From Rhizobium mesoamericanum STM3625 (lineage in GTDB: Bacteria > Pseudomonadota > Alphaproteobacteria > Rhizobiales > Rhizobiaceae): a stretch of DNA of 64,000 nt. The stretch spans positions 3,470,493 through 3,534,492 of the forward strand of contig NZ_HF536772.1 of assembly GCF_000312665.1 (NCBI RefSeq). The letters run 5' to 3'. Position 1 is the stretch's first letter; the number at the start of each line of letters is the position of its first letter. Both the position numbers and the translations under genes were made by a program. Positions 15,697 through 20,005 of this stretch are shown here, piece by piece. A model generated the notes under the pieces. The model did not search any database. It had not been told where the DNA came from and saw nothing but the letters and a program-made list of their open reading frames with translations.

Positions 15697-17273
<1,577 letters not shown>

Positions 17274-17350
17274 GTCTCGGATCCCACGTATTGCTGAACA
17301 AGAGGCCCGCCGGAAATGAACTGACCCCGTAAATTTGGACAGTTGATGGG

Positions 17351-18237
17351 CTAAGATAATAGGGACTGAGTTCTGTATTGGACAGGGCTCAGTCCTTTCA
17401 GTTTGAGCTTGATGCGGTGGTGATTGTCGTAGTGGATGTAGTCGGCGATGCCGTCATCCAGGCTCTGGATGCTTTCGAAGCGATTAGCATAGAAGAGCTC
17501 GGATTTGAGGGTGGCGAAGAAGCTTTCGATCGCCGCGTTGTCGAGGCAGTTGCCTTTGCGTGACATACTCTGGGCGATGCCGCGTTTTTGGAGCAGGCGC
17601 TGGTAGGGGGCATCTGGTAATGCCATCCCTGGTCGGAATGCAGGATCGGGCGTTCGTTCTTTTTCAGCCGGTTCAAGGCCTTGCTCAACATGCCTTCCAC
17701 CAGCTTGAAGACCGGCCTTCTGGCGGTTTCGAAGGCGATAATCTCCCCGTTGCATAGGTCCATAACCGGTGAGAGGTAGAGCTTCTCGCCGGCCACGTTA
17801 AACTCGGTGATGTCAGTGACCCATTTCTGATTGATCGCCCCTGCGGTGAACTGCCGTTTGATGAGATCGGGGGCGATGCGCCCGACGTCATCCTTGTAGG
17901 AGCGGTATTTCTTCGGCCGCATCAGCGATTTCAATCCCATCTCGACCATCAGGCGCTGGACCGTCTTGTGATTGGCCGTATGTCCGAGCTGGCGGATTGC
18001 CGCCGTTATCCGGCGATAGCCATAGCGGCCCTTGTGAGTATGGAAGACGGCCTTGATTCGGTCCTTCATTGCAGCATGCTTGTCGCAAAGCGCCGACACC
18101 TTTTGCCGATAATAAAACGTGCTGCGGGAAAGGCCCGAAAGCTTCAGCAACCCGTCAAGCGGATAGAAAGGCCTTAACGCTTGGACGACTTGCGCTTTTT
18201 GAGCGCTGGTTGCTTCCGCGTTAAGGCCTCGAGTTTT
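17351..18237 (-). pseudogene. IS150-group transposase orfB, frameshifted
   Basis: Encodes the DDE integrase part of the transposase. Reading in the -1 frame relative to orfA from the A7 slip site gives GLNAEATSAQKAQVVQALRP, then the IS150-type start LSGLSRSTFYYRQK, HTHKGRYGYRRI, first catalytic Asp in [10 protein letters not shown], second in [12 protein letters not shown]. Directly after YQM one base is missing in the G/C run at about 17606-17610. The proper continuation, [19 protein letters not shown] and [19 protein letters not shown] with the catalytic Glu, is in another frame ending at 17351. As read, the transposase lacks its Glu and should be inactive, unless the run is a sequencing error. 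Confidence 0.85.
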
Positions 18238-18734
18238 TTTAGGTAGGCGTTCTCCATGCGCAGAGAGTTCAGCTCCGCCAGCAGTTCTTCGCGGCTTTTT
18301 GCTTCGTCACTGTGCGAAGCTTGGGGCTGTTTTGAGATCGGCGGCTCGGGCATTGATCGGGGCCTTCCTTTGCGACGCGGGCTCAAGGCGTCGATTCCGC
18401 CAGTCTTATGGCGTCGCTCCCAATCCACCACGCTACCCTTATTGCGAATGTCGAACAGCGCCGCAGTCTGGCGGTAGGAGAGCCCATCCTCCCACATCCG
18501 CTGGAGAACCGATAGCTTGAATGCTGCGTCGTAGTGGCTGAATTTCTTCGCGAGACCGGCAGCCCCGTGCGCCTCGTAGCTTGCTACCCATTTGCGAACC
18601 GTCGCATGGTCCACGCCGAAATGCACGCAGACTTCACGAGCGCTACGCCCGCCCTTCTCACAAAACTCCACAACTGAAAGCTTAAAAGCCAGGCTGTGTT
18701 TCGACATGCAAAACCCCCGAAGGTTGTTGTCCAA
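18174..18734 (-). CDS. IS150-group transposase orfA (helix-turn-helix)
   Basis: A 186-residue protein with two HTH blocks: SAREVCVHFGVDHATVRKWV and LSYRQTAALFDIRNKGSVVDW, followed by a basic RRKGRPRSM linker and a leucine-rich heptad region ELLAELNSLRMENAYLKKL. Near its 3' end seven A (minus strand, 18234-18240) inside LKKL form a slip site; a -1 shift there leads into orfB. It binds the IS ends and, fused to orfB, makes the full transposase. Confidence 0.9.
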   Translation of the reverse strand: MDNNLRGFCMSKHSLAFKLSVVEFCEKGGRSAREVCVHFGVDHATVRKWVASYEAHGAAGLAKKFSHYDAAFKLSVLQRMWEDGLSYRQTAALFDIRNKGSVVDWERRHKTGGIDALSPRRKGRPRSMPEPPISKQPQASHSDEAKSREELLAELNSLRMENAYLKKLEALTRKQPALKKRKSSKR

Positions 18735-18850
18735 CTTTCGGGGGTCAGTTCAGAAACGGCGGGTTTTTTGCAGGCGCGCAGTTCATTCTTCGCTAACAAC
18801 TGTCGCCTATCTGTCGGCGCTACTTCTCTGACTCTGATGTTTTCGGGATC

Positions 18851-20005
18851 ATGACCATCCATCTCGACCTGGCGACTGTTCTCCTGCTGCACCAATGTTC
18901 TTTCCTGGTCGGTGCTGTGTGCTTTGTTTACATGCGTCTCCAGTCGCGCAGTGGCGAAGGGTTGGGAGCGCTCGCGGCGGGTTACTTCTCGCTAGCGTTG
19001 GCTTCGGCGCTTGCTGGATTGGGAGAACAACATCTACTGTCGCTTCCTGTTTGGGGATTCGGCAGCGTTACCCTCGGCGTCGCCGGATACGCGCTGTTCT
19101 GGATCGGCATTCGCAGATTGAGCAGCGGCAAGTCGCGACCCATGGATTGGTGGGCTCTCGCCATTCCGGCCGTGGTGGCCGTCCTTGCCTTCGCAACGCA
19201 ATTTCATGTCGTGAGCTATTTGCGTGGCAGTATCGGCAACGGCTTTGCGTTCGCGTCGCTTGCCGCCTCGGCATTCTGCATATTGCGAGATCGCGCATGC
19301 GAGCGATTGCCGGTGCGGTTCTTGCTTGCCGCCTTGATCGCGGTTGGCGCGCTATTGGCATTGCTTGTGATCGCGGGCCTTCTTGTTCCGAGCGTCGCAC
19401 CAATGACACCGATTTGGGCGTTCTTTCTGCGCATTATGTGCCAGTTCGCAATTGCGCTGTTCATCATCATCCTGGTCACGGAACGGACCGAAGCAGAATT
19501 GCGGTGTGTCGCCGAAACGGACATGCTGACAGGCATCGGCAACAGGCGCTGGTTCATGTCGTCTTTGCCGCGCTCGATGATCGAGGGCGATGCGCTGTTG
19601 CTGATGGATCTCGATTTTTTCAAGCAGGTAAATGACCGCTTCGGTCATGATGCCGGCGACGCCGTTCTCGTGTCGTTTGCCGAAGCGATCAGTCGTAGTC
19701 TGCGGCCGGGCGACAGCTTCGGCCGATTGGGTGGAGAAGAGTTCGGGCTGTACCTGCCAAAGATGACTGCAAGCGAGGCGCTCGCGACGGCGCAGAGGCT
19801 GTGCGGTGTCGCACGTGGTCTCGTCGTCGAATGCGGCGGCGAGCGGATCTCGCTGACGGTGAGTATCGGCGTTGCTATCGCAGTCGACGACCAGCGCTCG
19901 CTGACAGACCTACTCAAGTTGGCCGATGCCGCCCTCTATGCAGCAAAGGATTCCGGGCGAGATCGTGCCGTTCTATTCGATCCAAGTCTACGCGCCGCTG
20001 CGTGA
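18851..20005 (+). CDS. Membrane-bound diguanylate cyclase (GGDEF)
   Basis: A 384-residue protein. The first 210 residues contain about six to seven hydrophobic helices without a known sensor motif. The GGDEF domain follows: AETDMLTGIGNRRWF (221-235), metal Asp in LLLMDLDFFKQVNDRFGHDAGD, active motif GGEEF (294-298). An allosteric inhibition site RPGD (285-288) stands five residues before GGEEF, so product feedback is expected. No EAL domain. It makes cyclic di-GMP in response to an unknown membrane signal. The gene starts 82 bases right of the terminator T-run, so the IS insertion lies just upstream and might affect its expression. Confidence 0.93.
   Translation: MTIHLDLATVLLLHQCSFLVGAVCFVYMRLQSRSGEGLGALAAGYFSLALASALAGLGEQHLLSLPVWGFGSVTLGVAGYALFWIGIRRLSSGKSRPMDWWALAIPAVVAVLAFATQFHVVSYLRGSIGNGFAFASLAASAFCILRDRACERLPVRFLLAALIAVGALLALLVIAGLLVPSVAPMTPIWAFFLRIMCQFAIALFIIILVTERTEAELRCVAETDMLTGIGNRRWFMSSLPRSMIEGDALLLMDLDFFKQVNDRFGHDAGDAVLVSFAEAISRSLRPGDSFGRLGGEEFGLYLPKMTASEALATAQRLCGVARGLVVECGGERISLTVSIGVAIAVDDQRSLTDLLKLADAALYAAKDSGRDRAVLFDPSLRAAA

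Follow-up and report, generated by a model that had tools for sequence, protein, structure and literature searches.

Insertion of an IS150-group element in a terminator-like hairpin downstream of aatA and the probable preference of its relatives for such loops

The window analysed here, a stretch of 64,000 nucleotides from Rhizobium mesoamericanum STM3625, contains an insertion sequence (IS) that parts the two arms of a GC-rich hairpin shortly beyond an aspartate aminotransferase-type gene (aatA). This position raises the question of whether the element lies in the loop by chance or whether its transposase seeks out such loops. Uninterrupted sites, the target duplication, its centring on the loop and the recurrence of insertions in terminator-like hairpins of unrelated Proteobacteria and Bacillota are read directly from the sequences. 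Our comparisons make it likely that the IS belongs to a lineage of the IS150 group (IS3 family) whose transposase prefers the loops of intrinsic-terminator hairpins and makes a staggered cut of 3 to 4 nt.

The element downstream of aatA and its uninterrupted site

A sequence-only reading of the window had placed an IS150-group element, flanked by duplications of GAAA, in the tetraloop of the aatA terminator, and our analysis agrees with it in each of these particulars. GAAA is present on both flanks of the IS; with a single GAAA kept, the joined flanks read CCCGCCG-GAAA-CGGCGGG-TTTTTT, which contains a perfect 7-bp hairpin; and this lies 32 bases past the aatA stop codon, which ends at 17273 (spacer, 17274-17305), with all of the proposed coordinates correct (Table 1). 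The hairpin is unlikely to be a chance palindrome, since perfect stems of at least 7 bp were found at the junction at only 73 of 5580 random flank positions. With its GC stem, its T tract, its place 3' of a gene and its conservation in relatives, the hairpin has the features of an intrinsic terminator. The best NCBIfam match of the aatA product is PRK06107.1 (aspartate transaminase) at 566.7 bits, which is below the curated cut-off of 617.

The element has the gene layout of the IS3 family and IS150 group, with a helix-turn-helix in OrfA and a DDE/rve integrase core in OrfB. Its terminal inverted repeats are imperfect, starting with TG and ending with CA (termini TGAACTGACCCC...GGGGTCAGTTCA), and the GAAA duplication falls within the 3- to 5-bp range of this group. 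Membership of the IS150 group is further supported by the OrfB protein of an intact relative (L008, 92% identical), which shares 53% identity over 279 amino acids with InsK of IS150, the sole IS3-group protein compared. Fusion of OrfA and OrfB by programmed frameshifting is annotated in the ISEcB1 and IS150 records only. The present copy is probably not autonomous, since its orfB frame is broken while that of relatives, and of a second copy in the same genome, is intact.

Table 1. Features of aatA, the split hairpin and the inserted element, in window coordinates
Feature	Position	Strand	Basis or remark
Aspartate aminotransferase-type gene (aatA)	16071-17273	+	Pfam Aminotran_1_2, E 1.5e-87
5' arm of split terminator, CCCGCCG	17306-17312	+	Sequence
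GAAA tetraloop, left copy of target duplication	17313-17316	+	Sequence
IS3-family, IS150-group IS, 1436 bp	17317-18752	-	Transposase genes on minus strand, antisense to aatA
Left terminal inverted repeat	17317-17341	+	
orfB, HTH_21 and rve domains	17351-18150	-	Frame broken in last third; 3' end overlapped by left-end hairpin
Left-end hairpin, 16 bp, loop of 5, then TCAGTTTG	17361-17397	+	Entered by transcription from aatA; compensatory changes
orfA, HTH domains	18174-18734	-	Domain search
Right-end hairpin, arms 18713-18726 and 18732-18745, then UUUU	18713-18745	-	Ahead of an orfA ATG
Right terminal inverted repeat	18728-18752	+	
GAAA, right copy of target duplication	18753-18756	+	Sequence
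3' arm of split terminator, CGGCGGG	18757-18763	+	Sequence
T6 tract of split terminator, TTTTTT	18764-18769	+	Sequence
GGDEF (diguanylate cyclase-type) gene, downstream	18851-20005	+	Pfam GGDEF, E 3.5e-36

The 3' end of aatA was located in all 148 genomes of the genus, and the DNA beyond it was inspected for the best 30, the window's own genome included. The uninterrupted hairpin that the sequence-only reading predicted for relatives lacking the IS is indeed found there. Among the 29 relatives (the best of the 148 genomes), a perfect stem of at least 7 bp lies directly past the aatA stop in 16, the hairpin is imperfect by eye in 10 and none was seen at one locus (L068). The hairpin of the nearest relative (L064, 91%) is that of the window but includes one G-T pair. 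Six loci share the GAAA loop (L064, L066, L067, L070, L071 and L072); the others have GCGA, GTGA, GAGA or different loops. This terminator has also been struck in two more genomes: in one (L074, G139), an IS remnant in the opposite orientation follows the 5' arm, one side of it being seen, and in the other (L127, G012) a short derivative of the IS lies within the loop. L002, the other full copy in this genome (85% identical), sits in a hairpin as well, and this hairpin is uninterrupted in 14 of the 29 relatives inspected; another hairpin was reported for the remainder.

Insertion sites of related copies

Copies of the IS were sought in 148 genomes of the genus, 67 of which gave any match, and in 394 genomes of the family, 51 of which did so; end pairs were taken if 36-75 or 1250-1600 nt apart. 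As just the two best candidates per genome were scored in these searches, copies have been missed. Plasmid copies from S. meliloti (pSymB, L168), R. beringeri (L169) and Cupriavidus (L170) were added. A wider set was formed from the best 80 of at least 588 matching stretches in a genome scan: 48 of these loci had both ends and at least 15 nt of flank (32 were left out), and 45 entered the statistics, the other three having short flanks or a site already held. The end finder for this set was anchored on the motif TGAACTG and hence misses elements with other ends, while two copies for which the ends are probably wrong (L192 and L252) were kept in the counts as failures. Sites with common flanks were collapsed, which reduced 110 sites to 93 independent ones.

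A site passed our rule if the junction lay, to within 2 nt, inside a hairpin loop no longer than 14 nt and closed by a stem of at least five pairs with three G-C, and if at least five of the eight bases beside the hairpin were T or A. This one rule was applied equally to sites and controls, and a test for perfect stems was independent of it. The T-run part of the rule was revised once, after a first version had counted from the wrong pair. That version, which started at the G-C pair lying furthest out in the fold as a whole, passed 14/64, 0/1 and 10/45 sites and was dropped, many of its failures being plainly terminators by eye. Under the rule in use, some hairpins that seem genuine on inspection still fail on account of a long loop or an imperfect stem (L218 and L007).

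Most of the other copies collected sit in loops of terminator-like hairpins. Among the Rhizobiaceae, where the IS and its palindromic derivatives of 44 to 48 nt were taken together, 42 of 50 independent sites passed the full rule compared to 32 of 1000 random flank positions (Fisher P = 1.6e-46). Full ISs passed at 15 of 17 sites and short derivatives, counted at 33 independent sites with up to two mismatches in their ends, at 27. For wider IS150-group copies from Proteobacteria and Bacillota, 27 of 42 sites passed, a count that includes one probable REP-type site since L199 and L200 share one repeated palindrome, compared to 36 of 840 random positions (P = 1.2e-23); before grouping, the wider sites with a duplication of at least 3 numbered 33, and 25 of them passed. 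Positions shifted by 16 to 22 nt passed at 3/200 and 6/168, respectively, and shuffled flanks at 134/930. The contrast shrinks if the tract part of the rule is omitted (43/50 and 33/42 versus 333/1000 and 216/840). A perfect stem of at least 7 bp is present at 56 of the 93 sites, to be set against the control positions given above. Measured over the 68 sites with stems of at least five pairs, the centre of the duplication departs from the centre of the loop by a mean of 0.07 nt (sd, 1.27), whereas control stems have an sd of 3.37. Among 60 representative IS sites, the duplication measured 3 bp at 31, 4 bp at 13 and 5 bp at 1, and none was found at 15. Other rve-domain elements, used as a control, passed at one of six sites (six of 30 loci were usable, and two of these are one site in two genomes). 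A search of phages gave two weak matches.

Passing sites were found in Bacillota and in three classes of Proteobacteria (Alpha-, Beta- and Gammaproteobacteria). Outside the counted set, plasmid copies in Klebsiella grimontii (L303) and Acinetobacter indicus (L304, with a stem of 17 bp) pass as well. The suggestion that such an element may target terminators generally holds for this lineage as a preference, at the rates given above, but not as an absolute rule: two copies in an R. tropici-like genome (L010 and L110, both G140) have no hairpin at the site, and some relatives lie at REP-like palindromes or at nothing recognisable. The target rule of the G140 element may be relaxed; this element keeps both of its end hairpins though sited in no hairpin. 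ISPsy9 (L171) has a duplication and no such hairpin, and the sites of two Xanthomonas copies (L221 and L227) are not terminator-like. Three of four Pseudomonas copies with ends TGGACTGCCC lie in hairpins, which we take to be REPs of the ISPsy8 kind, and one (L193) lies in none. L199 and L200 pass the rule yet are copies of one repeated palindrome; together with L201 they represent three insertions in one Pseudomonas genome, all in copies of the same short, REP-looking palindrome. Another Pseudomonas insertion (L195) is at the centre of a 32-bp perfect palindrome. In a side clade, L185 (1030-2471) and L187 come from different genera and lie in palindromes that both contain GTGTCCAC...GTGGACAC, which may be a terminus of a different mobile element. 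The state of the site switches at least 11 times on a tree of 63 OrfB rows. Terminators were chosen by 42 of 53 elements with a left-end hairpin versus 3 of 10 without, which, with about four independent pairs (P = 0.25), is a hint that only elements with this hairpin choose terminators.

Two elements of E. coli were considered separately. Nine loci were compared for ISEcB1. In seven, the IS occupies a single position between yfbM and nuoN, which are convergent; it has entered the loop of CCGCCGA-GCATG-TCGGCGG, a hairpin that has A and T tracts, and the duplication is of 4 bp, CATG. Other E. coli contain the joined site without the IS, with 100% identity across 86 nt, and a match to no less than 80% of its length exists in 3868 of 5426 genomes; the empty site is absent from K-12 MG1655, since the interval differs there. 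In strain 510016 (L254, ISEcB1 at 1191-2631), the left half of the yfbM/nuoN hairpin differs and no duplication is left. For a copy of ISEcB1 next to lacI (L260), a duplication and a hairpin are both lacking; a plasmid copy (L172) has a duplication and no such hairpin. For IS150, MG1655 and nine further records were retrieved, and seven of the nine were analysed with MG1655. There are four distinct intact sites, all within predicted hairpins beside ibs or hok genes and all with 3-bp duplications. One of these (L294, IS150 at 501-1943) has its junction in the loop and passes the full rule, as none of the others does; in another (L298, 501-1943) the loop that was entered belongs to a hairpin of 22 pairs with too few T; and in the remaining two (L295/L299 and L300, with L295 and L300 at 501-1943) the junction is in an arm, about 8 nt off the apical loop. 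The hokA copy of the MG1655 type (L293, L296 and L297) has one hairpin arm left. IS150 itself is a less clear case of loop targeting, with one of the four distinct intact sites passing the rule and two in a loop. IS copies are reportedly frequent at hok loci, as Pedersen and Gerdes are said to have described in 1999. Target choice may explain part of the presence of ISs at hok and ibs loci.

Hairpins carried by the element and its short derivatives

The element carries a hairpin near each end. That of the left end starts 44 nt inside the IS, on the side facing aatA. The 43 distinct sequences compared come almost entirely from Proteobacteria and Bacillota; 94% of their pair cells are paired, nine of the 16 pairs have two-sided changes and a mean of 5.1 of the 8 bases past the core are T. 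Shuffling of the 3' letters gave a mean of 83% paired and a maximum of 85%, a comparison that is not a probability because the sequences are related and were admitted with at least 11 of 16 pairs, a filter that raises the percentage and left out L184, L192, L198, L221, L227 and L252. This hairpin is inside the 3' end of orfB, and both of its arms covary across Proteobacteria and Bacillota, apparently preserving pairing. The right-end hairpin, ahead of an ATG of orfA, folds at -12 kcal/mol or below in 50 of 52 distinct right ends, and TTTT is present past its stem in the 16 Rhizobiaceae copies displayed. A consensus scan of 17250-18860 returned four terminator-like sites compared to 1.9 (sd, 1.7) in shuffles, one of them being a short version of the left-end hairpin, and no promoter-like sites. 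We infer that the end hairpins act as terminators that bar outside transcription from the element. They may also substitute in part for the terminator that is split; at aatA, the strong left-end hairpin with its fairly U-rich tail may function in place of the broken one. Read-through from aatA into the IS, put forward in the sequence-only reading, is accordingly no more than a possible consequence of the insertion.

The short derivatives are built from the same parts. By pattern search, 15 of the 148 genomes were seen to contain such palindromes with exact ends, 16 in all and 45 to 48 nt long. In each, the final 8 nt of the left end close the right-end hairpin, a structure that a deletion between CGGGG(G)T repeats, present at both ends, would be expected to give. 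When five derivatives were folded (L127, L031, L096, L161 and L054), the predicted hairpin was lengthened and the terminator arms and T tract stayed joined in all five. Internal deletion to a palindrome of 44 to 48 nt would hence restore one continuous hairpin ahead of the T tract. The terminator that holds the IS at L002 in the window's genome holds a derivative in L140. This genome also contains two derivatives of 45 to 47 nt (L007, at G000:C1:1902500-1902544, and L005, at G000:C7:307479-307517), and similar derivatives are found in other Rhizobium genomes, mostly within terminator-like hairpins.

Alternative explanations and known systems

We propose that the transposase would recognise the hairpin as a structure, in the form of an extruded hairpin or DNA cruciform, more than as a fixed sequence and that insertion into the terminator loop by a staggered cut of 3 to 4 nt would duplicate the loop bases. 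A fuller account can be built on this proposal, in which an IS150-group lineage, present in Proteobacteria and Bacillota at least, recognises shape and lands in loops, exchanges the host's terminator for its own covarying terminators and, on deletion, is reduced to a palindrome that joins up with the host arms as one working terminator; IS150 copies near hok and ibs would then be due to the terminator hairpins of antisense RNAs and not only to selection for loss of the toxin. Taken as a whole, this account is tentative, and we are inclined to doubt that all of its parts will hold together.

It is very improbable that insertion is random and that copies are found near gene ends, and hence at terminators, because only intergenic insertions survive. 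The sites for which genes were examined (aatA and yfbM/nuoN) are intergenic, and defective copies such as that at aatA have been under selection for some time. However, positions just 16 to 22 nt away rarely pass the rule, the duplication is centred tightly on the loop and other rve-domain elements passed at the single site noted above; moreover, selection would be expected to disfavour the breakage of terminators rather than to spare it. We would give almost no credence to targeting of REPs in the manner of IS1397 and ISKpn1, with the aatA hairpin as one member of a repeated palindrome family. Relatives that target REPs do exist within the same IS family (the Pseudomonas copies and those of PMC1525189), but the target hairpins in Rhizobiaceae differ in sequence and occur at different loci, and the aatA hairpin stays with its gene in relatives.

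Two other explanations concern what the transposase might recognise at these sites. The protein could read the duplex, that is, an A tract, a GC-rich centre and a T tract with mirror symmetry, and not a folded hairpin. A and T tracts are present on both sides at 47 of 68 sites, and CCCCGC, GCCCGC and CCCGCC recur beside the loop. Against this, there are 42 different 6-mers among 62 stem arms, and the stems in Bacillota are quite different, such that pairing and not particular bases is common to the sites. We consider duplex reading unlikely as the explanation of target choice, while a sequence component could still contribute since two-sided tracts are so common. Alternatively, the transposase may be drawn by transcription, either to RNA polymerase paused at the terminator or to the nascent RNA hairpin. 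This would fit with sites that are mostly terminator-like and not just any palindrome, but relatives also strike REP-like and other palindromes, and we view a lead from transcription as improbable. Recognition of the hairpin as a structure is the reading that we prefer.

If this reading is true, terminators are a widely used landing site of a common group of transposons, and insertions at gene ends or between convergent genes, together with the evolution of gene ends, would be read differently. It would perhaps also bear on how some toxin-antitoxin loci gained their IS copies. The old question of whether and where cruciforms form in living cells would also become accessible to a simple insertion assay, given a transposase that locates loops independently of any fixed sequence.

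Insertion into hairpins has been described for several other elements. IS3-family elements including IS1397, ISKpn1 and ISPsy8 insert into REPs or palindromic units, and insertion at the axis of symmetry with a 3-bp duplication is stated for ISPsy8 (PMC1525189, Tobes and Pareja). These resemble the present IS as IS3-family elements that enter hairpin-forming sites but use one repeated family of palindromes, whereas the present IS is found in many terminator-like hairpins of varying sequence. In staphylococci, IS1272 and TnSha1 (IS1182 family) were found to enter hairpins without a primary-sequence consensus, several of which were confirmed as terminators by RNA-seq (PMC4923244). They differ by a blunt cut of the stem, partial deletion of the hairpin, the lack of a duplication and a transposase of another family; in the present IS, GAAA is duplicated and the stem is intact on joining the flanks. 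ISEcB1 of E. coli B is of the same group as the present IS and is like it in lying in the loop of a convergent terminator with a 4-bp duplication and an empty site elsewhere, but its plasmid and lacI-side copies are in no such hairpin. IS150 shares the left-end hairpin, the OrfB similarity and four sites in hairpins with 3-bp duplications, but differs in that the junction is in the loop at two of these sites, with one passing the full rule, in that the sites are beside hok and ibs and in its ends, TGTACTGCACCC. Class C group II introns are also said to insert at terminators, for which Robart et al. in 2007 are reportedly the source. Rho-independent terminators are given as landing sites of these introns in PMC3522654; the introns differ from the present IS in being retroelements and in inserting downstream of the hairpin. 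The IS1447 paper (PMC6211511), as far as it was seen, has no bearing on hairpin targets. In the open-access literature, searched through listings and selected passages, we found no report of terminator or terminator-loop targeting by IS150-group elements. Hence, landing in hairpins or terminators is known (IS1397 and ISKpn1 at REPs, IS1272 at terminators), landing of IS150-group elements in terminator loops was not found described, and the new points are the hairpins near both ends of the IS, with compensatory changes in the left one, and a short deletion derivative that leaves the terminator arms together.
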